A stretch of DNA of 64,000 bases, from positions 1-64,000 of the forward strand of contig JACVJC010000012.1 in the NCBI GenBank assembly GCA_015711795.1, in the 5' to 3' direction. The notes under the pieces are model-generated. The model was not told where the DNA came from. It did no database searches and saw only the letters and a list, made by a program, of their open reading frames with translations. The position numbers were made by a program, and so were the translations under genes. Origin of the DNA: Candidatus Geothermocultor quzhuomuensis (GTDB lineage: Bacteria; Actinomycetota; Aquicultoria; Geothermocultorales; Geothermocultoraceae). Positions 13,569 through 64,000 of this stretch are shown here, one piece after another (position 1 is the stretch's first letter; each line of letters opens with the position of its first letter).

Positions 13569-14042
13569 TTATTTTATTTGATAAGCCAGACTTCTCCCCT
13601 TCCCAACCGACTTAATCACATCTAATTGAACTAGCTTGTTAAGCTCTTTATGAGCGGCTTGCGCTGAAATCTTAAACATCTCTCTCACTTCACGATTCGT
13701 TATCTTCCCGTTCTGATTGATAAATTCGATCATTCTCATCCTCTCGCCATCAGTTAATTTTTCGATATTCTCCAGTGCCCATAGATAATTTAAGACCTCT
13801 TGTTTATCTTCGCGGGTTACCATTACTTCTCGTCCCTGAGCTAAATCGCTCACCTGTTCAAGAGATAATCTGTTTCCTTCAATAGCTGTGGAAGAATGAG
13901 CACTTCGGATAATGGCTTCACGACGAAGTGATACTTCCCATTTAGGGATAAACGGAGAATTCAGAATTAACTCCCTTGCTGCAGCTATCTGTGTTAGGTC
14001 ACTTACTATCTTGTCTGTATAGTGGAAATTTGGCTTAAACAT
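13569..14042 (-). CDS. Fic-family protein lacking the catalytic core
   Basis: Fic proteins transfer AMP or similar groups to target proteins. The first ~85 residues of this 157-residue product match the Fic N-terminal region, including the inhibitory-helix motif SSTAIEGN (pattern S/T-x-x-x-E-G/N) and LSLEQVSDLAQGRE. Residues ~105-157 form the usual C-terminal winged helix (NGKITNREVREMFKISAQAA, ending VGKGRSLAYQIK). The whole central Fic fold, including HPFxDGNGR, is absent, with an in-frame junction near LWALENIEKL/TDGERMRMIEF. The ATG at 14042 overlaps the hsdM stop by eight bases, so I prefer it to the longer frame starting at 14156. It is either a decayed toxin or a retained DNA-binding/inhibitory shell. 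Confidence 0.8.
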   Translation of the reverse strand: MFKPNFHYTDKIVSDLTQIAAARELILNSPFIPKWEVSLRREAIIRSAHSSTAIEGNRLSLEQVSDLAQGREVMVTREDKQEVLNYLWALENIEKLTDGERMRMIEFINQNGKITNREVREMFKISAQAAHKELNKLVQLDVIKSVGKGRSLAYQIK

Positions 14043-15813
14043 TAGTTGCTCCTCCCAACTCTTCCAGGTATCCCTCAATCTTTTTCTCAACCTCCGCAAG
14101 CTCGTCTTCGATTTTTCGGAGAGCTTCCCATTCTTGAGCAATGTCAATTGCTTCAACTTCTTCTTCGGGAAAAACGTAGAGGGTCACATTGAGGTTGTAA
14201 TCATTCTCTTTTATCTCTTCAAGGCTTACCGCTCTGGAAAAACCATCTCTGTCTGTGAATTCCTTATAAGCCTGGACAATCTTTTTGATGTGCTCATCTC
14301 CCAATCGATTGAGCTTTCTTACCTCAGGGTGCTGTTCGAACTCTCGGCTCGCGTTTATAAATAGAACCTTGCCTTTGCGCTCGGCGGGCTTGTTCTTATT
14401 AAGGATGATGATGGCTCCCGGCGCGCCAGTGTTGTAAAAAAGCTTTTCAGGCAGGAGAATAACAGTCTCAATGAGATTAGCCTCGAGCACCGCTTTGCGA
14501 ATGGCTTTTTCTTTGCCTCCCCGGAATAAACACCCATTGTCAATAACCACACCAACACGACCTGAATCATCCCGGGCTGATGCTAACATATGCTGGATCC
14601 AAGCCCAATCTGCTGACTGCTTAAGAGGGAAACCAAAAGAAAAGCGTTTTTGCCAAAACTCACCTCGTTTTAAAACCTCTTCCGGGTAGCCATCCTGATT
14701 CCAGGGCGGATTAGCAATAACCACATCAAACTGTTTTATGTTTTCCTTTTCTTTGAACTTAGGATAAAGAAGGGTGTCACCAAGCTTGAGATTAGCATTT
14801 CTAATGTCATGAATATAAACATTCATTGTAGCTAGAGAAAGAGTCTTGATATTAGCTTCTTGACCAGACAAAAAGAGTTTATCTGCAGCGGCTTTACCTT
14901 CTTCCTGTTCAACATGCTGGTAAGCACTGATAAGCATGCCTCCTGAACCGCAAGCAGGGTCATAAACACTTTCCCCAGGCTTCGGGTCAAGTATTTCAAT
15001 AATAAGCTTTATTACCTCGCGGGCTGTGTAAACCTCTCCCTCCTTAGCTTTTTGAGGAGCAAAATAACTCAATATCCATTCGTAGGCATCTCCTAAAATA
15101 TCTGGTGAAACGTGGTATAAAGTCTGAGCACTAAAAACCTCGACAAGTTGTCGCAAGATTTCGGCGTTTTCCCTACTGGTAGTAAACTGCACGAAATCAA
15201 CATTCTCAAAGATATTCTTCAACTCAGAGTTCCGTTCAGCTAGCGCCTTCATTGCTTTGGAAAAATTTTCGGGCAATCTGGCTGGCTCTTTACGAATGTT
15301 CTCCCAAAGAAATTCATCTGGGAGATCGAAATCATGGTAGACTGAGTTTTTGGCTTCCTCTTTCGCCTCCTCTTCAGTCAAACCATCTTCAAGAGCTTCC
15401 TTATATGCCTGGTCAAACTCCATTTCCCACTTGTCACTAATTCTCTTGTAAAAGAGCAGTAGAAGAATAAATGAATAGTCCACGCGAGTACGGATAAGGT
15501 CGGCAGCCTTCTTGAGAAGGGTGTGCAAATCTGCCCTATTGAGTGTTTGTTTTTCTTTTTCAAATCTTTCGACTAGGCTTTCTTCTACGCTTAATAATTT
15601 ATATATTCTCTTTCGTGCATCTTCTGGATTAAGCTTCACCTCGAGAAGGTGGTTTTTCCTTAATTGAGAAAGTGCCACATTTACCTGCTCTTCACTGTCA
15701 TGAATATCGGAGGCATCCCTCAGTGTTGTAGCCGCTTCCTCAAAAGAAAACTCAGAGTCTTTAAATACCCCCGCAAGTATCTTATATCTGTTTTCAAGCC
15801 ATTTTGGTAACAT
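14035..15813 (-). CDS. hsdM: Type I restriction enzyme, modification (M) subunit with N-terminal winged helix
   Basis: HsdM is the adenine-N6 methyltransferase of the complex and uses S-adenosylmethionine. The 592-residue protein carries motif I DPACGSGGML (about residue 285) and the catalytic NPPW (about 369), with the HsdM N-terminal helical domain before them (LLLLFYKRISDKWE). The first ~75 residues are an extra domain (ENRYKILAGVFKDSEFSFEE onward) that reads like a winged-helix module and is not part of standard HsdM. A coiled-coil-like C-terminus (EALRKIEDELAEVEKKIEGY) ends the protein. It is the promoter-proximal gene of the operon; the downstream Fic-like gene overlaps its stop. Confidence 0.95.
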   Translation of the reverse strand: MLPKWLENRYKILAGVFKDSEFSFEEAATTLRDASDIHDSEEQVNVALSQLRKNHLLEVKLNPEDARKRIYKLLSVEESLVERFEKEKQTLNRADLHTLLKKAADLIRTRVDYSFILLLLFYKRISDKWEMEFDQAYKEALEDGLTEEEAKEEAKNSVYHDFDLPDEFLWENIRKEPARLPENFSKAMKALAERNSELKNIFENVDFVQFTTSRENAEILRQLVEVFSAQTLYHVSPDILGDAYEWILSYFAPQKAKEGEVYTAREVIKLIIEILDPKPGESVYDPACGSGGMLISAYQHVEQEEGKAAADKLFLSGQEANIKTLSLATMNVYIHDIRNANLKLGDTLLYPKFKEKENIKQFDVVIANPPWNQDGYPEEVLKRGEFWQKRFSFGFPLKQSADWAWIQHMLASARDDSGRVGVVIDNGCLFRGGKEKAIRKAVLEANLIETVILLPEKLFYNTGAPGAIIILNKNKPAERKGKVLFINASREFEQHPEVRKLNRLGDEHIKKIVQAYKEFTDRDGFSRAVSLEEIKENDYNLNVTLYVFPEEEVEAIDIAQEWEALRKIEDELAEVEKKIEGYLEELGGATNV

Positions 15814-52862: not shown

Positions 52863-53519
52863 TTAGCTGTTTAGCTGTTTACGCCAAAAAGTCGAGAGAA
52901 TAAAGCTAATGGAAAAAATGGTCAAAAAAATGGCGCCAAAGAAAACTTTTAATTCTAAGGAAGGAGAAGAACCAATAGCATTTTTAGGATGAAAAACGTC
53001 TTTGGTGGTAGCAAGGGCGACTAACACAGTTATTGACATAACAACATAAGCAATTGAAAGAAATTTAGGTTCACGGAAAAATTCTGAGAAAATTGCGAGA
53101 ACCAAAACACCAAATAAAATAATCAAGCTTGTTTTAACCTTTGGCTCGCTCCACAAAAAACCACCCCAGACCAGTTTCATAATCAAAGCCCCCAAAAGAG
53201 ATTGGACTATCCAGAGAGTAAAAGCCATCAACTCAAAAGCTTTTGACCAAGAGAAAAAAGACATTTTCTTTAAAGAAAAAAGAGCCAAAATACCAGCTAA
53301 AATAAAAAAAATAATGCCACTTTGAGCAATACTAGCATGAAAGTATATGAGTTTTACATTTGAACCTAAAGTTTCTTCAGCTGGAGAAAAGTAAAGAAGT
53401 AACATTAACAGAAAGGTAAGAGCTAATAAAAGAAAATGCTCTTTTTTCCAGTGTAAATTAGTACTTCTTTTATCTTGTTGCACATTCGCCCCCTCTTCCA
53501 GTAAGTATTTCAATAGCAT
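52863..53519 (-). CDS. CcmC-like heme-handling membrane protein
   Basis: About six hydrophobic helices and a divergent tryptophan-rich block, VWGGFLWSEPKVKTSLIILF, where CcmC/CcsA proteins have WG-x-W-W-x-WD. IYFHASIAQSGIIFFILAG and FHPKNAI supply candidate His ligands. The conserved part starts after a hydrophilic leader, and GTG at 53483 behind GAGGGGG is a better start than the ATG at 53519, which lies deep within the mog reading frame. Two such proteins in tandem suggest an unusual heme export pair. Substrate assignment is inference. Confidence 0.75.
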   Translation of the reverse strand: MLLKYLLEEGANVQQDKRSTNLHWKKEHFLLLALTFLLMLLLYFSPAEETLGSNVKLIYFHASIAQSGIIFFILAGILALFSLKKMSFFSWSKAFELMAFTLWIVQSLLGALIMKLVWGGFLWSEPKVKTSLIILFGVLVLAIFSEFFREPKFLSIAYVVMSITVLVALATTKDVFHPKNAIGSSPSLELKVFFGAIFLTIFSISFILSTFWRKQLNS

Positions 53520-53982
53520 GAAAAAGAACCGGCAAAACCACTTCTAAACATTCTCTCACCCCTTTAGGGCTACCCGGTAAGTTGATAATTAAAGTTTTTC
53601 CTCTAATTCCAGAGACAGCTCGAGAAAGCATGGCATGGGGAGTAAACTTCAAGCTAGATGCTCTCATTGCTTCAGCTAAACCTGGTGCTTGCCTCTCAAT
53701 AACTTTAAGGGTAGCCTCAGGAGTAACATCACGGGGGGAAAACCCTGTCCCCCCCGAAGTTAAAATTAAATCGACCTTTTCTCTATCGCAAAGATTAATA
53801 AGCTTCATCTTAATCATCTCTTCTTCGTCTGGGAGAATTTCATAATCAATAATTTCAGCTCCAGCTTCTTTCATCATTTTCAACGCAATCTTTCCACTCT
53901 CATCTTTTCTTTTTCCCTCATACCCTTTATCAGAAATAGTTAAAATAGCTACCTTCATCACTCCTCCATACATCCTGATCAC
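53470..53982 (-). CDS. Molybdopterin adenylyltransferase-type protein (MogA/MoaB)
   Basis: A 170-residue protein with the MoCF-binding fold: VAILTISDKGYEGKRKDESG, DLILTSGGTGFSPRDVTPEA and INLPGSPKGVRECLE. It would adenylate molybdopterin ahead of metal insertion by MoeA. The first eight residues are not conserved; MKVAILT, starting at 53958, is the probable start. It overlaps the following CcmC-like gene. Confidence 0.92.
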   Translation of the reverse strand: MIRMYGGVMKVAILTISDKGYEGKRKDESGKIALKMMKEAGAEIIDYEILPDEEEMIKMKLINLCDREKVDLILTSGGTGFSPRDVTPEATLKVIERQAPGLAEAMRASSLKFTPHAMLSRAVSGIRGKTLIINLPGSPKGVRECLEVVLPVLFHAIEILTGRGGECATR

Positions 53983-54040: not shown

Positions 54041-54505
54041 TTAATCCTGCTCTAAATCTACTATTGTTATGGGGTCCCCAACTTTAATTTCCCCACCCTT
54101 TACTACCTTCGCAAAAATGCCTTCTTTGGGCATCACGCAATCTCCCGCCTGGTAATAAATGGCACACTTAGTGTGACAAATTTTACCAATCTGAGAAACT
54201 TCCAACAAAGCATCCCTGCCAATTCTCATTCTTGTTCCAACAGGTAGAGAAATAAGGTTAACCCCTTCAGTAGTTATGTTCTCAGCAAAATCCCCTGGTC
54301 CTACCTTTAAACCCATCTTTTGCATCTTTTTAATGCTCTCAAGAGCTAAAAGGCTAACTTGCCGATGCCAGTCACCAGCATGAGCATCATCTTCAAAGCC
54401 ATAATTCACTCGGAGACACCCTTCTCCAACTGGCTTTTTCCGAACGCTCTTTTTCTTACTGACATTTACTGAAACAACTCGCCCCTTACCTTTCAGCATT
54501 TCCAT
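54041..54505 (-). CDS. MOSC domain protein
   Basis: A 154-residue single MOSC domain, as in molybdenum-cofactor sulfurase C-terminal proteins: KGRVVSVNVSKKKSVRKKPV, DDAHAGDWHRQVSLLALESI, FAENITTEGVNL and the Cys motif IGKICHTKCAIYYQAGDCVM. MOSC proteins bind the cofactor or deliver sulfur. It lies among moa/moe genes, which supports a role in final cofactor maturation. Confidence 0.92.
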   Translation of the reverse strand: MEMLKGKGRVVSVNVSKKKSVRKKPVGEGCLRVNYGFEDDAHAGDWHRQVSLLALESIKKMQKMGLKVGPGDFAENITTEGVNLISLPVGTRMRIGRDALLEVSQIGKICHTKCAIYYQAGDCVMPKEGIFAKVVKGGEIKVGDPITIVDLEQD

Positions 54506-54664: not shown

Positions 54665-55144
54665 CTAGTTTTTCCAAGTAAAGTCACCACTTTTTCCACC
54701 ACTTTTTTTAACCAAACGAACATCCCTAATGACCATTTTTTTATCGACTCCTTTACACATATCATAAATAGCAAGAGCAGAAGCTACGATCGCAGTTAAA
54801 GCTTCCATTTCCACTCCTGTTCTGTCCCTTGCCCTAACCACACTTTTGATTGAAATTGCTGAAGTTTCTTCTTTAAGTTTTAGTTCAACATCAATATGAG
54901 TTATCTTTAGAGGATGGCAAAGGGGAATTAGCTCAGGGGTGCGCTTAGCAGCCATAATTCCTGCAATCTTAGCAACACTTAAGACATCACCTTTGGGCAC
55001 CTTACCTTCTTTAATAAGGTTTAATGTTTCAGGAGCCATCGAGATTTCCCCTTGAGCAATTGCTTCTCGCAAGGTAACATCCTTCTGACTGACATCAACC
55101 ATTTTTGCTTTACCTTTCTCATCCAAATGGGTTAATTTTTTCAT
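54665..55144 (-). CDS. moaC: Cyclic pyranopterin monophosphate synthase
   Basis: MoaC converts the MoaA product to cPMP, the first stable molybdopterin precursor. The 159-residue protein shows THLDEKGKAKMVDVSQKDVT, AAKRTPELIPLCHPLKITHI and GVEMEALTAIVASALAIYDM, with KSGGKSG at the end. It follows moaA, giving the usual moaA-moaC pair. Confidence 0.97.
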   Translation of the reverse strand: MKKLTHLDEKGKAKMVDVSQKDVTLREAIAQGEISMAPETLNLIKEGKVPKGDVLSVAKIAGIMAAKRTPELIPLCHPLKITHIDVELKLKEETSAISIKSVVRARDRTGVEMEALTAIVASALAIYDMCKGVDKKMVIRDVRLVKKSGGKSGDFTWKN

Positions 55145-55228: not shown

Positions 55229-56200
55229 CTATCCTCCTATCTCACTCATTTTCTTTCCTTTCTTCCCTCGATGAGCCTTCCAACGATTTTTAGGTTTCCC
55301 GGCTATGGCTTCTCGAATAATTTTCTCTATCTCCTCGTCAGTTGCTCCTCTTCTCATTGGTGTCTTCAAATCAATCTCATCATCGGAAAAAAGGCACAGT
55401 CTTAAATGACCATCAGCTGTAATCCTTAAACGATTGCAAGAAGCACAAAAGTGTTCAGTATAGGGGAAAATAAATCCAATTGTCCCTTGAGCTCCTTTAA
55501 GCTTAAAATAGTGAGCAGGGCCCGAACCCTTAGGTGAATCAACATCTTCTAAGCTACTTCCCCGTAAAATAAGCTCCTTTGCTTCTTGACCAGAAAGGAA
55601 AAGGTTATCACGATTGGGCAAAAAATCCATTAATTCAATAAAACGAATATGAATCGGTAGCTTTAAAGTAAGTTTCGTAAATGACTCTAAATTTTCCTTA
55701 GACCCTTTTAATAAAACCACATTAACCTTAACTGGGTTAAATCCTTTCTCAATTGCTGCCATTACCCCTTTCCATGCCTGACTCAAGCTCCCTCCCCTAG
55801 TTATTCTTTTATAAACCTCAGGATTTAAAGAATCAAGGCTGATATTTATTCGTCTTAAGCCTGCTTCCCAAAGTTCATCTATGTAATCTTTCAAAAGAAT
55901 GCCATTAGTAGTTAAAGAAAGGTCTTCAATCCCAGGGAGAGAATTTAAAGAAGCAATAAGGGAAGGTAAATCTCTCCGCAATAAAGGTTCGCCTCCAGTC
56001 AAACGAATTCGAGAAATGCCCATCCCTAAAGCAATTTTAGCTAACCGTTCAATCTCCTCATAACTTAATATTTCTTCATGCCTTTTCCATTCTATTCCGT
56101 GATAAGGGATACAGTAAATACATCTTAAATTACAGCGGTCAGTTATAGCAAAACGTAAATAATTAATTTTTCGTTTATAAGAATCACGCAATTCCACCAA
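55229..56200 (-). CDS. moaA: GTP 3',8-cyclase (radical SAM)
   Basis: MoaA starts molybdopterin synthesis from GTP. The radical-SAM cluster is C23-x3-C27-x2-C30 (CNLRCIYC), with RLTGGEPLLRRDL. The C-terminal second cluster is CASCNRLRITADGHLRLCLF (Cys about 255, 258, 272). The final GG expected of MoaA is present (IGG at the C-terminus). It sits between moeA and moaC. Confidence 0.97.
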   Translation of the reverse strand: MVELRDSYKRKINYLRFAITDRCNLRCIYCIPYHGIEWKRHEEILSYEEIERLAKIALGMGISRIRLTGGEPLLRRDLPSLIASLNSLPGIEDLSLTTNGILLKDYIDELWEAGLRRINISLDSLNPEVYKRITRGGSLSQAWKGVMAAIEKGFNPVKVNVVLLKGSKENLESFTKLTLKLPIHIRFIELMDFLPNRDNLFLSGQEAKELILRGSSLEDVDSPKGSGPAHYFKLKGAQGTIGFIFPYTEHFCASCNRLRITADGHLRLCLFSDDEIDLKTPMRRGATDEEIEKIIREAIAGKPKNRWKAHRGKKGKKMSEIGG

Positions 56201-56235: not shown

Positions 56236-57471
56236 TTAATTCTCTTTTAAGCTGAATAGTTCCTGAGAAAGTAATTGGACCTTAACCACTTCGCCCTTTT
56301 TAACAAGTGATTTATCTTTAGGAATCAAGGCAATCCCATTCGCTTGAGAAAATGATTTTAAAACCCCAGAACCTTGATGTCCGCTTAATGAAGCATAAAA
56401 AGTTTCCCCCTTTTTTTGAACAAAAACGCGAGCAAAATTTAACCTACCAGGCTTTTTTTTGATATCCTCATTTAAAACCACTTCAATCTCTGGACGAAAG
56501 ATATCTTTTCTCCCCATCATTTTTAAGATAGAAGGCCTGACATACTCTTCAAATGCGATGAAAACAGCGCCTGGGTTCCCTGGTAAACCAAATAAAAATT
56601 TCTCTTGATAAGTAAAGAAAGCCAAAGGTTTAGCTGGCTTTTGAGCTACTTTCCAGAACTTCATCTCAGCTCCAATTTCCTCAATTGCCTCTTTAACAAG
56701 GTCATACTCGCCAACTGATACCCCTCCAGTAGTTAAAACTATGTCTGCTTCCTGAAGAGCTTTCCTAACTTTTTCTTTAATTTTTCCAATTTCGTCCGGG
56801 ACTACTCCCAAATCTAAGGGCTTAGCACCTACTTCAAGAATAAGTGACCAAAGAAGATAACTGTTGCTGTTCCTGATTTTACCTGGGGTAAGGGCCTCTT
56901 CTAAACCAACCAGCTCGTCTCCAGTAGTAATAATAGCAACAACTGGCTTTCTAAATACCTGCACTTTGCTCTGGCCTAAAGCAGCTAATAACCCTATTTC
57001 AATGGGGCGAATTTTTGTCCCTTTCCTTAAAACAAGCTCCCCGCTCTTAACATCTTCACCAGCCAATCTGATGTTTTCACCTTCTTTAAGCTCCTTGAAA
57101 ACTTTAACTTCGTCCCCTTCTTCTTGAGTAAATTCAACAGGAACAACACTATTAGCTCCCTCAGGAAGAGGTGCTCCAGTCATTATCTTAAGAGCAGTTC
57201 CTGAAGAAACCTTTCTTTGGCTAACCTTACCAGCAGGCTCGCTATCGATAATCTTGAGTTTAATAGGATTTGACTCACTTGCTCCTTTAGTATCTTCAAA
57301 ACGACAAGCAAAGCCGTCCATAGCGGAATTATCAAAGGGGGGCAAATTTAAAGAAGAATAAATATCCTCTGCTAAAACATAATTTAAAGCTTCAACTAAC
57401 CTTACTTCTATCCTGTCAAGCTCATTGACATTCTTAATGACTATCTCTCTTGCTTCCTCAAAATCAATCAT
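56236..57471 (-). CDS. moeA: Molybdopterin molybdenumtransferase (MoeA)
   Basis: MoeA inserts molybdate or tungstate into adenylated molybdopterin. The 411-residue protein has DNSAMDGFACR, MTGAPLPEGANSVVPVE, the MoCF domain TTGDELV and TGGVSVGEYD, and PAKPLAFFTYQEKFLFGLPG (domain III). Normal length. It follows the tungstate transporter ATPase by 15 bases. Confidence 0.96.
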   Translation of the reverse strand: MIDFEEAREIVIKNVNELDRIEVRLVEALNYVLAEDIYSSLNLPPFDNSAMDGFACRFEDTKGASESNPIKLKIIDSEPAGKVSQRKVSSGTALKIMTGAPLPEGANSVVPVEFTQEEGDEVKVFKELKEGENIRLAGEDVKSGELVLRKGTKIRPIEIGLLAALGQSKVQVFRKPVVAIITTGDELVGLEEALTPGKIRNSNSYLLWSLILEVGAKPLDLGVVPDEIGKIKEKVRKALQEADIVLTTGGVSVGEYDLVKEAIEEIGAEMKFWKVAQKPAKPLAFFTYQEKFLFGLPGNPGAVFIAFEEYVRPSILKMMGRKDIFRPEIEVVLNEDIKKKPGRLNFARVFVQKKGETFYASLSGHQGSGVLKSFSQANGIALIPKDKSLVKKGEVVKVQLLSQELFSLKEN

Positions 57472-57486: not shown

Positions 57487-58566
57487 TCATTCACGTTCAA
57501 TCAAATGAACTGCCGTGGCTTTAAAAGAAGCCCAGATTTCCTTTCCTTCAGCTAAATTTAGCTCTTCCAAAGCTGGCTTGGTAACAAAAGCAGCTAAAGG
57601 AAAACCCGCATCTAAAAAAACCTTATGAAAGTAACCAAAGGGAATTATCTTTTTAATTAAGGCTTTTACCTGATTGCGAGGGCTGGATTTATTTGGTTGA
57701 GCGCTCAAAACAACTTCTTCCGGTCTTAAACAAAGGATTACCTTCCTAGCTTGGCATTGAGCAGCCACCTCAATTTCCCCCTTACCAACAGCTACCTTAA
57801 CTAACCCATTATCTTCCCCAATAACTTTTCCTTCTAGGACTGTCTCAACACCAACAAAGCGCGCTACTTCCTCTGAAGCCGGGAAATTAAAGACTTCCTC
57901 TGGTTTTCCTTCCTGAACTAAATACCCATTAATTAAAATGCCTAAGTGGTCAGCCAGAAAAAGAGCCTCCTCTCGTTCATGGGTAACATAGACAACTGTT
58001 AAATTTAGCTGTCTGAAAAGTCTTTTTGATTCCAGAAGAAATTTTTCTCGACTTGGTGCATCTAGGTTAGCCAAAGGCTCATCGAGTAAGAAAATTAAAG
58101 GTTTGAGAACTAAAGATCGTGCCAAATTTACCCTCTGAGCTTCCCCACCTGAAAGAAGGTAAGCAGGAACATCAGCTAAATGCTCAATTTTAAGCCAAGC
58201 AAGGGCTTTATTAACCCTCTGCTTAACCTCACCAGGTTTAACTCCTCTAATCTTTAAGCCATATGCAACATTATCAAAAACAGTTGAGTTAAAAAGGAGA
58301 GATTCTTGAAAAACTAAGGACATTTGACGACGAAGTGAAAATCTTTGAGCTTTTCCTTCAACTAAATTACCTTGAAAGAAAATTTTCCCTTGAGTTGGAA
58401 ATTCAAGGAAATTTAACAAGCGAAGAAAGGTGCTTTTCCCAGAACCATTGGGACCTAAAATAACATAAATTTCACCTTGAGCAACTTCCCAATTAGGAAT
58501 ATTAAGAACAAATCTTTCTCCAAGTTGATATTTAAGGTCTTTTACCGCCAAAATGGTTTTGCCCAT
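57487..58566 (-). CDS. tupC: Tungstate/molybdate ABC transporter, ATP-binding protein
   Basis: A 359-residue ATPase with Walker A GPNGSGKST (residues 38-46), the signature LSGGEAQRV, Walker B FLLDEPLANLD and H-loop VTHEREEA. A C-terminal regulatory TOBE-like domain follows (about 290-359). The linked permease and solute-binding protein are TupB and TupA, so tungstate is the likely substrate. Overlaps tupB by 25 bases. Confidence 0.92.
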   Translation of the reverse strand: MGKTILAVKDLKYQLGERFVLNIPNWEVAQGEIYVILGPNGSGKSTFLRLLNFLEFPTQGKIFFQGNLVEGKAQRFSLRRQMSLVFQESLLFNSTVFDNVAYGLKIRGVKPGEVKQRVNKALAWLKIEHLADVPAYLLSGGEAQRVNLARSLVLKPLIFLLDEPLANLDAPSREKFLLESKRLFRQLNLTVVYVTHEREEALFLADHLGILINGYLVQEGKPEEVFNFPASEEVARFVGVETVLEGKVIGEDNGLVKVAVGKGEIEVAAQCQARKVILCLRPEEVVLSAQPNKSSPRNQVKALIKKIIPFGYFHKVFLDAGFPLAAFVTKPALEELNLAEGKEIWASFKATAVHLIERE

Positions 58567-59264
58567 TCAACCTTACCCCTTTGTTGAATATAAGATAAAA
58601 CCAAATTAACCAAAAAGGTTAAAGTGAGAAGAATTAAACTCAAGGCAATGGCAATTTCAAAATGTCCCATTCGAGTTTCCATCACAATAGCTGTGGTTAA
58701 AACTCTTGTCTGCCCTTTGATATTCCCCCCAACCATCATTACCGCTCCTATCTCTGAAATAACCCCACCAAAGCCAGCCATAATAGCTGCTAGTAAAGGT
58801 AATCTCGCTTCAAGAGCTAGTTTTACCACCATTTGAAAAGGAGTAGCACCTAAGGAAATAATTTGCCACCTCAGTTTGGGGTCAATGTGCTGAAAAGCAG
58901 CCATGGAAAGACCAGCCACAATAGGAAAAGCAATGATAACTTGAGCAATTACCATAGCCGTTGGCGTATAAAGGAGTTCCAGAAAGCCCAAAGGCCCACT
59001 TCGCCAAAGAAAGAGAGAAACTAAAAGACCAACCACAACCGGTGGCAAGCCCATTCCCGTGTTAACCAAAGCAATAGCGATTTGGCGCCCTCGGAAAGGA
59101 ACTAAAGCTAAAAAAACTCCTAAGGGGATTCCAATAAAAAGGGAAAGAAAAGTGGCTGTTCCTGAAACTTTTAGGGAAAGGAGGGTAATATCAATAATTT
59201 CAGGATTAAGAGAGAAAATCATTAATACTGCCTTTTTTAACCCTATCCAAATTAATTCCATCAA
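58542..59264 (-). CDS. tupB: Tungstate ABC transporter, permease protein
   Basis: A 240-residue binding-protein-dependent permease with about five helices and the EAA-type loop LRWQIISLGATPFQMVVKLA. MGLPPVVVGLLVSLFLWRSG is typical of the Tup/Vup permeases. It couples to the tupC ATPase, which overlaps it. Confidence 0.92.
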   Translation of the reverse strand: MMELIWIGLKKAVLMIFSLNPEIIDITLLSLKVSGTATFLSLFIGIPLGVFLALVPFRGRQIAIALVNTGMGLPPVVVGLLVSLFLWRSGPLGFLELLYTPTAMVIAQVIIAFPIVAGLSMAAFQHIDPKLRWQIISLGATPFQMVVKLALEARLPLLAAIMAGFGGVISEIGAVMMVGGNIKGQTRVLTTAIVMETRMGHFEIAIALSLILLTLTFLVNLVLSYIQQRGKVEWAKPFWR

Positions 59265-59343: not shown

Positions 59344-60180
59344 CTATTTAATTGCATCTTGAATAAAAAGGGGTTCGCTAAATTTATCTTTACCAAAATC
59401 TTTAATAATAGCCTGACCTTCAATGCCAGTAATAAAATTGACAAAATCTTGAGCTAGTTTACGGTGCACTTTGGGAAATTTTCGGGCGTTCACCACAATA
59501 ACACTATAGGCATTTTTTAGGTCCTCGCTCTCACCTAGTAAAATCTTGAGGCCAGTCCCCGCCCTAGTTGCTAAATAAGTTCCTTTATCAGTTAAAGTAT
59601 ATGCCCCTTTTTCGCTAGCAATTTTAAGGGTCTCAGCCATTCCTTGCCCAGTTTGAATATACCATAAACCACTAGGCTTGATTCTTGCCTCCTCCCAAAT
59701 TTTCATTTCTTTCCTATGAGTACCTGAATTATCAGCTCGAGAAGCAAAAAGAGCTTTTTCCCGAGCTATCCTTCTAAATGCCTCCTTTGCAGTTTTTGCT
59801 TTCTTAATTTGAGCTGGGTCAGTTGGAGGCCCTACAATAATAAAAAAGTTGTGCATAACATCCTTACGAACTTCGCCATAGCTATTAGCCATAAATTTCT
59901 CCTCATCTTCCCTGGAATGAACTAAAAGGACATCGGCGTCACCGCGCATCCCCATCTTTAAAGCTTCTCCCGTCCCAACAGCAATTACTTTTACCTTAAC
60001 ATGGTATTTTTTTTCAAATTTTGGAATAAGAACATCTAAAAGTCCGGTGTCCTGAGTGCTTGTCGTTGTAGCTAAAATTAATGTTTCTGGATTTTTACTT
60101 CCTTTCTTTTGAAAATTACAACCTGCTAAAACTAACACAAAAATGATTAAAAAACCAAAAAACCAAATATTTTTTTTCAG
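59344..60180 (-). CDS. tupA: Tungstate-binding lipoprotein, probable CTG start
   Basis: The extracellular solute-binding subunit of the Tup transporter. The signature ATTTSTQDTGLLDVLIPKFE and SRADNSGTHRKEMKIWEE (oxyanion contacts) identify TupA rather than ModA. Standard starts give only GTG at 60138, which would leave six residues before the lipid-anchor Cys of VLAGC. The full signal peptide, KKNIWFFGFLIIFVLVLAGC, is encoded upstream in frame. The only codon in the right place is CTG at 60178-60180, preceded by GGGGG at a normal distance and by an in-frame TAG. I therefore extend the gene to CTG. Confidence 0.9.
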   Translation of the reverse strand: MKKNIWFFGFLIIFVLVLAGCNFQKKGSKNPETLILATTTSTQDTGLLDVLIPKFEKKYHVKVKVIAVGTGEALKMGMRGDADVLLVHSREDEEKFMANSYGEVRKDVMHNFFIIVGPPTDPAQIKKAKTAKEAFRRIAREKALFASRADNSGTHRKEMKIWEEARIKPSGLWYIQTGQGMAETLKIASEKGAYTLTDKGTYLATRAGTGLKILLGESEDLKNAYSVIVVNARKFPKVHRKLAQDFVNFITGIEGQAIIKDFGKDKFSEPLFIQDAIK

Positions 60181-60291: not shown

Positions 60292-60471
60292 TTAAAAGCA
60301 ACCCAACTCGCATGCGAATATTTTAATTCTCAATTGATTACAAGCATCTCCAACCAACTTAACTGAGACATTAAAATCTTCTGCAATTTTTCGGGCTTTG
60401 GGGCAAGAAATTTTACCGTCTTCAGCCTTTTCTTTAACCGCTTGCAGAATTTCCTCAGGAATATTTGACAT
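60292..60471 (-). CDS. Small conserved protein ending in a QLRIK...LGCF motif (59 aa)
   Basis: A short gene between the riboswitch-terminator and tupA. Its 59 residues begin SNIPEEILQAVKEKAEDGKI, then SCPKARKIAEDFNVSVKLVG (a compact helix-turn-helix-like arrangement) and end CNQLRIKIFACELGCF. I recall similar small proteins ending in xLxIKIxxCQLGCF from anaerobic Firmicutes near molybdenum or tungsten genes; I know no function. The Cys residues at positions 23, 44, 53 and 58 could bind a metal. Position as first gene after the riboswitch suggests it is co-regulated with the tungstate transporter. Confidence 0.7.
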   Translation of the reverse strand: MSNIPEEILQAVKEKAEDGKISCPKARKIAEDFNVSVKLVGDACNQLRIKIFACELGCF

Positions 60472-60532: not shown

Positions 60533-60563
60533 AAAAAACGTGCTCCCATCAGGAAAGCACGTT
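60533..60563 (-). terminator. Riboswitch expression-platform terminator
   Basis: On the minus strand ACGTGCT and AGCACGT form a seven-base stem with an 11-base loop, followed by TTTTTT. It sits immediately after the riboswitch candidate and about 60 bases before the 59-residue gene, so it would stop transcription of the tungstate genes. Confidence 0.8.
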
Positions 60564-60574
60564 TCAAAGAAATA

Positions 60575-60712: not shown

Positions 60713-60943
60713 TTACCCTTTCTTCTTTTTCCGGGCGACTTTTTCTTTTTCCTCCTCTTCCTCCTCTTCCTCGTCTTTACCTTCAGAAGTCTTACGAAGC
60801 TCCCTTATCGTTCTACCTATAGCCTTGCCCATCTCTGGTAATCTTTTAGGACCAAAAATAAGAAGAATAACAAAAAGAATTATTCCCAGTTCAACAGGGC
60901 CTAGTCCAAACAATCCAATTGCTATAAACATTAGCCTCCTCAC
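60713..60943 (-). CDS. tatA: Twin-arginine translocase subunit TatA/TatE
   Basis: A 76-residue protein with one N-terminal membrane helix (LGPVELGIILFVILLIFG), the FGPKRLPEMGKAIG amphipathic helix and a long acidic then basic tail (EEEEEEEEKEK). TatA forms the pore that exports folded cofactor-loaded proteins. Its location between MobA-FdhD and the tungsten operon suggests that it serves export of a formate-dehydrogenase-like enzyme. Confidence 0.93.
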   Translation of the reverse strand: MRRLMFIAIGLFGLGPVELGIILFVILLIFGPKRLPEMGKAIGRTIRELRKTSEGKDEEEEEEEEKEKVARKKKKG

Positions 60944-61047: not shown

Positions 61048-62400
61048 TCAGTTTTCAGCTACCAATCTCTCCTTGTGAGTATAAACAACCATATTCTTCC
61101 CCCGTACATAACCAATTATTGTTAACTTATATTTTTTGCCCAGTTCAACTGAGGCATCAGTTGGAGAAGAAAGTGAAACAATTATGGGCAAGCGAGCCCT
61201 TATTGCTTTAAGAAGCACCTCAGATGAGATTCTTCCCGTAGTTATCAAGATTTTTCCCTCCATTAATTTTCCTTTTAATAAGCAATCTCCAATTACTTTA
61301 TCAACACTATTATGTCTTCCAATGTCCTCCTTAATTGAAAGAATTTTCTCACTTGAAGAGATAGAAGAGGAGTGAATCCCTCCACTTTCTCGATATAAAG
61401 AAGCGCTTTGCGTAGTTTCCTTAACTAGCTCAAAAATTTTAATTGGTGAAACCTTAAAAGAATCCTTCACTTGAGTTAAGATTTTTTCATTAAAAGAAAA
61501 GGTAAAGCCTCTTCCGCAACCCGAGGTTAAAATCCGCCGTTGGAGTCGAGGAAAGGAAATTTTTTTCCTAACTTTAACCCAAATATAATAATCAGCATCG
61601 ACACTTATCTCTTTAATCTCATCAACCTTTTCAATAATCCCTTCAGTAAAGAGAAAACCAATTGCCAATTCTTTAAGGTCTCTTGGCGTAGCTGAGAGAG
61701 TAACCAGCTCTTTTTCGTTTAAAATGATTGTTGCCCCTCGTTCTTCAGGCAAATTTCGATTAAATCTTTTGCGAGCTTTTTTCCTGCTTATAATGGGTTT
61801 CAAAGCTACTTCTCTTCCCGCAATTGCTAAAGCTTTTTGATAATCCCCATCAGTATTGATATTGAAAAATGACAACAATTCTGGGTCATACTTTCTTACC
61901 TCTTCCTCATCAACATATTTAACATTTACATCAGAAAAAAAAGAGATAACTTTTCGCTCTCCTTCCTTTACTTTCTTTTCTATCGCTTTAAGGCAGCTTT
62001 TAGAATAAAAGGCAAAAAGTGGTTCTGGCTTTCCATTTAAAAAAGGAACAACTACATCAAAATCCTCTCTTTGGCTTGCTAAGAAGTTTATTAAATCAAG
62101 ATTTATGAAAGGCATATCCCCAGCAACAACAAAGTTCCAATAAGAACTGGAAGCTTTGAGTCCGCTTAAGATACCTCCAAGGGGACCAAAATAAGGAAAA
62201 TCATCGAAAACAACTTTTGCTAAATCTATTTTTTTTAAAGGTTTTTTGTTGACCACAAAAATTATTTCCTTTGAGACCCGAGCTAGCTTTTCAACTTGAA
62301 TTTCCAAAATATTCTTACCCTTAATCTTTAAGAAGGGTTTGTTTTTGCCAATCCTTTCCCCTTTACCTCCACCCAAAATGATTAAGGAAAACCCCACCAT
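61048..62400 (-). CDS. MobA-FdhD fusion: molybdopterin guanylyltransferase plus sulfurtransferase
   Basis: The N-terminal ~190 residues match MobA (LIILGGGKGERIGKNKPFLK, then FDDFPYFGPLGGILSGL, VVAGDMPFINLDLI), which attaches GMP to molybdopterin. Residues ~195-450 match FdhD: RGATIILNEKELVTLSATPR, ELAIGFLFTEGII, TSGCGRGF, SGGIHSS and KEDIGRHNSVDKVIGDCLL. FdhD transfers sulfur to the cofactor of formate dehydrogenases. The usual CxxC is reduced to a single Cys in SGCG, as in many FdhD proteins. Fusing guanylation and sulfuration in one chain is uncommon and ties both steps to the same enzyme. Confidence 0.93.
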   Translation of the reverse strand: MVGFSLIILGGGKGERIGKNKPFLKIKGKNILEIQVEKLARVSKEIIFVVNKKPLKKIDLAKVVFDDFPYFGPLGGILSGLKASSSYWNFVVAGDMPFINLDLINFLASQREDFDVVVPFLNGKPEPLFAFYSKSCLKAIEKKVKEGERKVISFFSDVNVKYVDEEEVRKYDPELLSFFNINTDGDYQKALAIAGREVALKPIISRKKARKRFNRNLPEERGATIILNEKELVTLSATPRDLKELAIGFLFTEGIIEKVDEIKEISVDADYYIWVKVRKKISFPRLQRRILTSGCGRGFTFSFNEKILTQVKDSFKVSPIKIFELVKETTQSASLYRESGGIHSSSISSSEKILSIKEDIGRHNSVDKVIGDCLLKGKLMEGKILITTGRISSEVLLKAIRARLPIIVSLSSPTDASVELGKKYKLTIIGYVRGKNMVVYTHKERLVAEN

Positions 62401-62421: not shown

Positions 62422-63093
62422 TTAAGAAGTTCTAGAGAGAAAATATAAAGTGTGAAGGAGGTCAACCACAGGATTTGTATTGTGAACCTTTACTGAAGAA
62501 GGAGCATGAACCATTTCAGAAGAATAATTGATAATTACTTTAATCCCGGCACTTACAAGTTCATCTGCAACCTCCTGAGCTGCTTCTTCAGGAACAGCAA
62601 TAATCCCAATTTCAATCTTATTTCTTTTTATCACTGGCTTTAATTGGTTAATGTGATAAATTTTCAAACCTGCAATTTTTTTGCCAATCTTTCTTAAATC
62701 ATTATCAAATAGGGCAGAAATATTAAATCCATACCTCTTTAAACTTTGATATCCCGCTATAGCGGTCCCTAAATGACCTACTCCAACCAAAGCAATCTTG
62801 TGAATCTTACCAACACCTAAAATTTTTTGAATTTCCGCGATTAAAAGATCAATAGGATAACCAACTCCCTTTTTTCCAAAAGAACCAAATTGAATTAAGT
62901 CTCTCCGAATTTGGGCTGGATTGACCCCAGAAAACTCACTCAGCTCTTGAGAGGAAATAACCTTCTTTTTTTCTTCCTTATGATGAAGCAAGCATTCAAA
63001 ATACAATGAGAAACGTTCTATCATACCCTCAGGCAATTTTTTATTAACTTTTCTTTTAGCTTTTTCTATTCTTTCTTGCTTCAAAAGCTTCAC
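62422..63093 (-). CDS. rex: Redox-sensing transcriptional repressor Rex
   Basis: Rex senses NADH/NAD and represses anaerobic genes. The 223-residue protein has a winged-helix N-terminus (ISSQELSEFSGVNPAQIRRD, then LIQFGSFGKKGVGYP) and a Rossmann domain with VGVGHLGTAIAGY and IIAVPEEAAQEVADEL, plus the domain-swap helix at the C-terminus. It is transcribed ahead of MobA-FdhD with 21 bases between the genes. Confidence 0.96.
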   Translation of the reverse strand: MKLLKQERIEKAKRKVNKKLPEGMIERFSLYFECLLHHKEEKKKVISSQELSEFSGVNPAQIRRDLIQFGSFGKKGVGYPIDLLIAEIQKILGVGKIHKIALVGVGHLGTAIAGYQSLKRYGFNISALFDNDLRKIGKKIAGLKIYHINQLKPVIKRNKIEIGIIAVPEEAAQEVADELVSAGIKVIINYSSEMVHAPSSVKVHNTNPVVDLLHTLYFLSRTS

Positions 63094-63297: not shown

Positions 63298-64000
63298 TTA
63301 CTTAAATATCTCATTTAGTTCTGTTTTAACAGTATCAGAGATAGCTCCTGTTCCCCCTAAGATAAAGATGTTTTGAATGGTTAGTTTGTTTTGAGTGATG
63401 AAATCTTTAGAAATTTGAGATAAAGCTTCTTTTTTAGTTAAAACTAAGGGAGATGAAAGTTTAGCTCCCAAAGCTCCACCAGCTAAAGCATCAGGGAAGT
63501 TTTCACCAGTTGCCAGAAGTATCTTAGCTGAGGTCATCCCTTGAGAAAGAGCATAAGAAGCAATTTCTATTGCTGTTTGGTATCTATCTTGACCTGAAAT
63601 TCTTGTTGGTGAAGGTAAGCTTGATTGGAGAGATGAAGAGATAACACCAGTTCCACCAACAATTATTGTCTTTGTAATTGAAAGCTCTTGTAAGACTTCT
63701 TGAGTTGATGAAGGAATTGAGTCTTTCTTAGTAAGTAATATAGGTATATTTTTATAAGCAGCTAAGGAAGAAATTGCTAAGGCATCAGGATAGTTAGCAC
63801 CTGTTGCAATAATAGCTTCTCCTTTTAAAGAACCAAGTTTTTCTTTTAGTTTGCGGGCAATGTTTGAAGCTGTTTCATATCTATCTTTGCCACTTATTCT
63901 TACAATAGTTAAGCCAAGGGAGGCAAGTTTATCTTCAACCCCTGAAGAAATAGCACCAGTCCCACCTAAGATAAAGGCATTTTTTGCATTAAGTCTTTTT
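63298..64000 (-). CDS. Cell-wall-binding repeat 2 protein, C-terminal part (cut by window edge)
   Basis: The frame is open from the window edge (first full codon at 63999) to a stop at 63298-63300. It carries about three cell-wall-binding type 2 repeats, each with GGTGAISS or GGTGVISS, SGKDRYETA or SGQDRYQTA, and ATGANYPDALA or ATGENFPDALA. This domain anchors surface proteins to anionic cell-wall polymers in Gram-positive bacteria. The N-terminal functional domain lies outside the window. It is the intact relative of the decayed repeats at 19310-20040. Confidence 0.93.
   Translation of the reverse strand, partial: KRLNAKNAFILGGTGAISSGVEDKLASLGLTIVRISGKDRYETASNIARKLKEKLGSLKGEAIIATGANYPDALAISSLAAYKNIPILLTKKDSIPSSTQEVLQELSITKTIIVGGTGVISSSLQSSLPSPTRISGQDRYQTAIEIASYALSQGMTSAKILLATGENFPDALAGGALGAKLSSPLVLTKKEALSQISKDFITQNKLTIQNIFILGGTGAISDTVKTELNEIFK

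Follow-up and report, generated by a model that had tools for sequence, protein, structure and literature searches.

The 64,000-nucleotide stretch of DNA from Candidatus Geothermocultor quzhuomuensis analysed here (the window, contig C12 of a 1.76 Mb assembly) codes for a single protein in which the guanylyltransferase MobA is joined to the formate dehydrogenase chaperone FdhD. The mobA-fdhD fusion gene (61048-62400, minus strand) comprises 450 codons from an ATG start to the stop in an unbroken frame, and its 450 aa product is matched by two near-full Pfam profiles; such a fusion had been proposed in an earlier note on this DNA and is borne out in the assembly, where one frame carries both domains in full. 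We conclude that this is a real and recurrent fusion of known parts, each of which is ordinary on its own. Judging from the sequence, we give a probability of roughly 0.68 to the reading that it is a bifunctional late-stage protein of Mo/W cofactor maturation, in which a tethered MobA would make MGD and FdhD would sulfurate the cofactor and load formate dehydrogenase.

The MobA guanylyltransferase domain (residues 1-197; 61810-62400, minus strand) was assigned from Pfam, a fold match to 3NGW and its motifs. NTP_transf_3 (PF12804) covers residues 7-153 with profile positions 2-155 of 160 (E 7.4e-31; 107.9 bits, cut-off 27), and MobA models were the best NCBIfam matches to this half, although they stayed under their cut-offs (NF001457, the best single-domain MobA model, 136.0 against 164; TIGR02665, 92.7 against 151.85). 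The FdhD domain (residues 219-446; 61063-61746, minus strand) was assigned from Pfam, NCBIfam and fold matches to 4PDE and 2PW9. FdhD-NarQ (PF02634) spans exactly these residues with profile positions 2-236 of 237 (E 9.1e-70; 235.5 bits, cut-off 27.2), and the FdhD model TIGR00129 was passed with 193.7 against 140.9, while NF001943 reached 175.4, under its cut-off of 269. It can also be seen that the MobA motifs GGG...R.G..K, GPLGG, GDMP and NINT are present in the N-terminal half, reading LGGGKGERIGKNK, VAGDMPF and FFNINT in the window, and that the motif residues are invariant across 11 aligned fusions. GG rather than AG in the nucleotide motif is taken as the mark of the GTP type. When PDB sequences were searched with phmmer, Archaeoglobus fulgidus MobA (3NGW) aligned with residues 7-195 and Desulfotalea psychrophila FdhD (2PW9) with residues 199-449, and therefore MobA and FdhD are joined almost end to end. 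Domains, folds and motifs thus agree with the earlier proposal that guanylation and sulfuration or delivery are predicted activities of one chain.

An AlphaFold2 model built from 44 sequences had a mean pLDDT of 90.2 and a pTM of 0.57, with pLDDT below 50 in two stretches, the linker at residues 198-213 (61762-61809, minus strand) and the loop at 286-295 that holds Cys295. The halves of the model were compared with PDB folds using VIA-align, a comparison that re-scores Foldseek's ranking, so that families absent there carry no meaning. The MobA half matched 3NGW with a Z of 25.9 (rmsd 1.9, 189 residues aligned, residues 4-197) and E. coli MobA 1FR9 and 1E5K with Z of 22.0 and 21.9, and the FdhD half matched E. 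coli FdhD 4PDE and D. psychrophila 2PW9 with Z of 30.0 and 29.4. The folds are therefore held in common, but the three MobA structures are stand-alone enzymes and the two FdhD structures are without a MobA domain. The disordered linker and the pTM of 0.57 point to a tether without fixed geometry, and in our reading of the model a flexible tether links two sound domains.

Cys295 (61516-61518, minus strand) is the only cysteine of the sulfur-transfer loop, whose SGCGRG aligns with TGCGVCG of E. coli FdhD. By this alignment it matches E. coli Cys121, and the position of the second cysteine of the CxxC, CGVC in E. coli, is taken by Gly298 in the window (CGRG). A loop with one cysteine was found in 15 of 18 fused proteins, namely the window, 10 from the Aquicultor family (f3), three from family f55 and one from a Coriobacteriia MAG (L106), whereas three fusions from family f21 keep the CGVC loop; D. 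psychrophila 2PW9, like the window, has one cysteine in the aligned loop. The available part of one report records FdhD loops with one or no cysteine (PMC10609526). In the split FdhD proteins of G105, G333, G126, G148 and G191 (loci L050, L051, L071, L072 and L070) the loop cysteine is replaced by phenylalanine (SGFGKG), and all five genes nonetheless lie near FDH-N genes. Since there is one loop cysteine here and a phenylalanine in five split relatives, sulfur transfer is a candidate role for Cys295.

How widespread the arrangement is was assessed in 36 genomes of the class, with open reading frames checked. One fused gene occurs in 11 of them (the window's genome and all 10 matching f3 genomes) and adjacent separate mobA and fdhD genes in 21, so that the two are fused or adjacent in 32 of the 36; G255 carries fdhD without a detected mobA, G005 has mobA and fdhD on different contigs, and G094 (f3) and G315 gave no match to the fusion in this search. 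Outside the class, fusions were found in three f55 genomes, three f21 genomes and the Coriobacteriia MAG L106; the phylum search covered 396 genomes, of which at least 322 matched one half or both, and its fusion counts are lower bounds. A scan of named genomes with the single protein as query gave no relative. With an alignment as query the scan gave 72 loci, 10 with a fused open reading frame, 11 with both genes apart and 51 with one gene; nine of the 10 fused loci duplicate genomes already covered, and only L106 is new. The search for this domain architecture suggested in the earlier note therefore yielded one-frame fusions in 16 other genomes and in L106, all with the same domain order.

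The window and f3 have well-preserved MobA motifs (the start of the G351 open reading frame does not align), and the three f21 fusions have altered ones. In L106 (161-1597) the motifs are degraded, with GDRAE for GDMPF and NINT not aligned, and its MobA half may be, to judge from these residues, an inactive relic or a structural part; not every fusion need therefore keep MobA activity. The scan also returned open reading frames of 921 and 924 aa in Caulobacter/Caulobacterales MAGs (L152, 829-3594; L163, 3764-6538) with FdhD at the C-terminal end; the L152 protein had no Pfam match outside FdhD, and both may be over-long open frames. A Treponema MAG (L116, 202-1602) encodes FdhD preceded by about 230 N-terminal residues without a Pfam match. 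Loss of MobB as a general cause of fusion was rejected, as within the class MobB is present in 8 of the 11 genomes with a fused gene and in 18 of the 23 split ones (Fisher p = 1.0; G094 and G315, which lack a fusion match and are both without MobB, were left out). A MobB match is nevertheless absent from the window's genome and from G244, G342 (79% complete) and G180, that is, from the whole set with which the window's FdhD groups.

The FdhD tree (49 rows, 18 fused) was made from the window, 39 of the 40 fetched neighbourhoods and nine of the 72 named loci, omitting L084, which holds only the mobA of G005; the MobA tree (48 rows) was made from the window, 38 neighbourhoods and nine named loci, with none from L083 or the G255 locus. 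The 63 named loci left out were nine fused and one paired duplicates, the pairs L125 and L136, and 51 loci with a single gene. In several rows the branch is long or the composition unusual. The FdhD tree calls for at least four changes between the fused and split states (four over the 5-95% range of 200 bootstrap trees), and its starred branches force four; the MobA tree calls for at least three, and its starred branches force two. These changes do not separate gain from loss of the fusion, but their number in both trees makes the fusion look convergent. In the MobA tree the f21 and Coriobacteriia fusions group together and the window has no resolved place, while in the FdhD tree the window groups with the three split genes of G244, G342 and G180 (99/97). 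The fusions of Candidatus Aquicultor and Coriobacteriia MAGs (EMTCatB1 and others) share the domain order and the single frame with the window, but they come after tupC in a tup/Moco operon with no rex or tatA in view and stand apart on the FdhD tree. Inheritance of the window's fusion together with the Aquicultor fusions is thus not favoured; because its FdhD falls among split genes and its gene order differs from theirs, a separate fusion is.

The flanking genes named earlier were confirmed by Pfam and NCBIfam: the redox-sensing repressor gene rex (62422-63093, minus strand; NF003995 over cut-off) lies 21 nt upstream of the fusion gene and tatA (60713-60943, minus strand) 104 nt downstream. 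A Moco/tungsten riboswitch (RF01055; 60575-60692, minus strand; 80.8 bits) is followed directly by an intrinsic-terminator-like hairpin with a T tract (60535-60565, minus strand), and the two together fold with -55.6 kcal/mol (z -4.28). Since the scanned region has three terminator-like sites and shuffles gave 2.0, the position of the hairpin weighs more than the number of sites. Below the terminator, all on the minus strand, are a conserved small open reading frame of 59 aa, perhaps HTH-like (60292-60471), and genes for a TupA-like tungstate-binding protein (59344-60138; 219.1 bits, NCBIfam cut-off of 400 not reached), a tupB-like permease named from position and the synteny of relatives (58542-59264), and a WtpC/TupC-like tungstate/molybdate ABC ATPase with a TOBE domain (57487-58566; below cut-off). 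These are followed by moeA (56236-57471; Pfam domains over cut-off, NCBIfam equivalog 405.2 against 440), moaA (55229-56200; TIGR02666 over cut-off), moaC (54665-55144; NCBIfam over cut-off), a gene for a MOSC-domain protein (54041-54505; Pfam) and one for a moaB/mog-like molybdopterin adenylyltransferase (53470-53982; 157.6 against 158 for NF006932). From its position, the riboswitch probably places the genes below it under cofactor feedback, with the fusion gene above it in the company of rex. Of the 40 fetched neighbourhoods, 17 contain relatives of the 59-aa frame, each together with Mo/W cofactor genes; the similarity of the frame to DUF7645 and to HTH models is weak and under cut-offs. 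Elsewhere in the window, inspection by eye showed a short Fic-like frame overlapping hsdM, with the domain core apparently missing (13569-14156, minus strand), and a putative cell-wall-binding repeat protein that runs off the window (63298-63999, minus strand).

The order rex-mobA-fdhD-tatA of the window is also found in G244, G342 and G180. FDH-N genes, whole or partial, come before mobA and/or fdhD in nine fetched relatives (G105, G333, G072, G255, G223, G191, G126, G148 and one G005 contig), and rex is in view beside them in G105, G333 and G005. The order in G105 is rex-fdnGH-...-mobA-fdhD-...-tatA; there and in G072, FdnG carries a twin-arginine signal as well as selenocysteine, and genes for FdhE and a membrane subunit lie above mobA and that for MobB below fdhD. 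At L065 (8261-15444) and L050 (8739-15978) an exported selenocysteine FDH-N, fdhE, mobA, fdhD, mobB and tatA stand in one island. By comparison the window looks like a remnant of such an island for an exported formate dehydrogenase, minus the enzyme, FdhE and MobB. The pair, whether fused or split, comes after tupC in f3, f55 and G324, and moeA is next after it in 6 of the 10 f3 genomes, the three f55 genomes and G324; G020, G169 and G060 have moaA next, with moeA not detected, and G351 is cut off by the end of its contig. A search of 15 of the 40 neighbourhoods for riboswitches showed three positions. The place between tatA and tupA that the window has is shared by G072, G255, G244 and G180; G105, G333 and G005 have theirs between rex and fdnG; and in G048, G137, G202, G035, G020, G185 and G324 they stand upstream of tupA and so precede the mobA-fdhD pair. 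The stretch from G116, which begins inside the operon, gave none. Two tandem Moco riboswitches stand upstream of tupA at L053 (5532-5865), L056 (5289-5700) and L081 (5725-6031).

Profile searches of the window's genome found one FdhD match, the fusion, which also has the top score among nine NTP_transf_3 matches. None of the six scanned among the other eight reached a MobA cut-off; these six are GlmU, GalU, IspD, RmlA-type and other nucleotidyltransferases, one with weak MobA similarity. With one good MobA and one FdhD, the chain would have to serve every bis-MGD enzyme of the genome. Three PF00384 matches resolve into two genes, both formate dehydrogenase-like. The first, on C17, codes for a complete selenocysteine formate dehydrogenase (TIGR01591, 920.8 bits against 666.25) with a NuoG-like N-terminus and adjoins NuoE-like and NuoF/GltD-like subunits, as in the NAD type; no signal peptide was seen by eye. 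Its neighbours, read by eye, we take to be HdrA, MetF, CooC and AcsE. The second, on C32, is truncated where the contig ends and is like the FDH-N alpha subunit (FdnG), with a beta-subunit-like neighbour; both score under cut-offs, and the base composition of C32 fits the rest of the genome. There was no AFOR match in the genome, and an AFOR-type tungsten enzyme was therefore rejected as a client. From its sequence, the C17 enzyme is the best-supported candidate for a client, probably a cytoplasmic one, and the C32 enzyme, possibly exported, is a candidate for a second.

The earlier note had inferred from tatA and rex that the cofactor goes to an exported formate dehydrogenase, and had pointed to fdh genes near rex and tat as a check. 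For relatives arranged like G105 that inference is right, as their rex/tatA island encodes an FDH-N with a twin-arginine signal. At the window's own locus, however, there is no FDH-N operon, the genome gave no FdhE match (E up to 1) and no MobB match, and the only complete formate dehydrogenase, of NAD type, is without a visible signal peptide. We therefore regard it as unlikely that the chain works exclusively for an exported enzyme that depends on Tat, even though nine relatives carry FDH-N genes beside mobA and/or fdhD, FdhE and MobB accompany a twin-arginine FdnG in two of them, tatC is present on C16 of the window's genome, and C32 holds FdnG-like and beta-subunit-like sequence of similar base composition. 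The N-terminus of the C32 protein is missing, so a Tat signal cannot be read there.

Two further explanations concern the junction, which is one base from an ordinary 4-nt gene overlap. It reads GTAGCTTTGAAACCC, and by eye a CTTTG run with one T fewer would restore TTGA, where the start would overlap by 4 nt with a stop in the adjacent frame, as in relatives. An extra base in the assembly could thus have joined two genes that truly overlap, and the nearest split relatives (G244, G342 and G180) do keep fdhD and mobA in different frames. The T run is only three bases long, however, all 19 other window genes chosen (9 and 10 in two scans) cover their Pfam profiles, and one-frame fusions occur in 16 other genomes, five of which were, like L106, checked with Pfam. 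We consider such an artefact very improbable, and leave it the small share that it has because the class search contained no second genome of the window's family. A gene fusion that is real but neutral, in which overlapping co-translated genes lost their boundary and the domains work as if apart with no gain in hand-off, is doubtful but deserves more weight. The 20 split-pair junctions printed, with starts chosen mechanically, comprise 16 overlaps, two pairs that abut in frame with TAA between (G105 and G333) and two short gaps. The in-frame codon TTG at Leu200 (61801-61803, minus strand) lies close to where FdhD homologues begin (the 2PW9 alignment starts at residue 199); it is a candidate for the earlier start of fdhD or for an internal one, from which free FdhD may still be made. 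L106, moreover, is fused in spite of its degraded MobA motifs. Against neutrality stand the three to four or more state changes, always with identical domain order, and the fusion of all 10 matching f3 genomes.

The reading that we prefer is that of a bifunctional chain with a direct hand-off. The MobA half would add GMP to metal-bound molybdopterin, giving MGD, and the FdhD half would bind finished bis-MGD, add the terminal sulfur via Cys295 and load formate dehydrogenase; the flexible linker would keep bis-MGD at high local concentration, and the encounter of MobA with FdhD would become intramolecular. In the available part of a study on M. extorquens, the two-hybrid signal between FdhD and MobA exceeded background, and a W-FDH required moeA1, mobB and fdhD (PMC13197769). 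For E. coli, FdhD is described in the available part of another report as carrying Mo-bisPGD and transferring sulfur via Cys121; FdhD binds bis-MGD and is thought there to pass sulfur onto the cofactor before delivery, and its dimer can hold two GDP on one face (PMC10609526). The recurrence of the fusion, the common adjacency of the genes and the published two-hybrid signal together favour a direct hand-off. They also make the channelled delivery suggested earlier plausible, but the disordered linker and the pTM of 0.57 speak for hand-off by proximity on a tether and not for a rigid tunnel. As both PF00384 genes are formate dehydrogenase-like and AFOR is absent, tying MobA to a formate dehydrogenase chaperone need starve no other client seen, and this may be why tethering is tolerated. 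A bolder and decidedly unlikely version is a convergent single-chain machine of genomes with formate dehydrogenase as the only client, in which an FdhD dimer with two MobA arms, one per guanine, would build bis-MGD on the chaperone; tethering would then be allowed only where all bis-MGD users are formate dehydrogenases, as appears to be the case here.

Fusions of neighbouring Moco steps are known, among them MobA-MobB, MoaC-MobA and MobB-MoeA (NF011056, NF011070 and NF011060), two of which contain MobA. These are without FdhD, whereas the window's protein joins synthesis to client-specific sulfuration and delivery. In Gottschalkia, mogA-mobA-fdhD end the cluster of an electron-bifurcating formate dehydrogenase (hylCBA-fdhF), but the available part of that report lists mobA and fdhD as separate genes (PMC4582583). 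We found no description of a MobA-FdhD fusion protein, and nothing on an Aquicultor formate dehydrogenase, in the open-access PMC literature searched; the available part of a paper on archaeal molybdopterin-pathway fusions treats them without the words MobA or FdhD (PMC11237513). How bis-MGD gets from MobA to a client-specific chaperone is an unsettled point in the literature, where the published contact, as far as the available text goes, consists of a two-hybrid signal and a model of low-to-moderate confidence. A natural chain for both steps is a defined object in which to study the hand-off, its stoichiometry and the loop with one cysteine, and could serve as a simple component when Mo/W formate dehydrogenases are to be produced in other hosts. 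That the fusion seems to have arisen more than once suggests that the MobA and FdhD steps work hand in hand.
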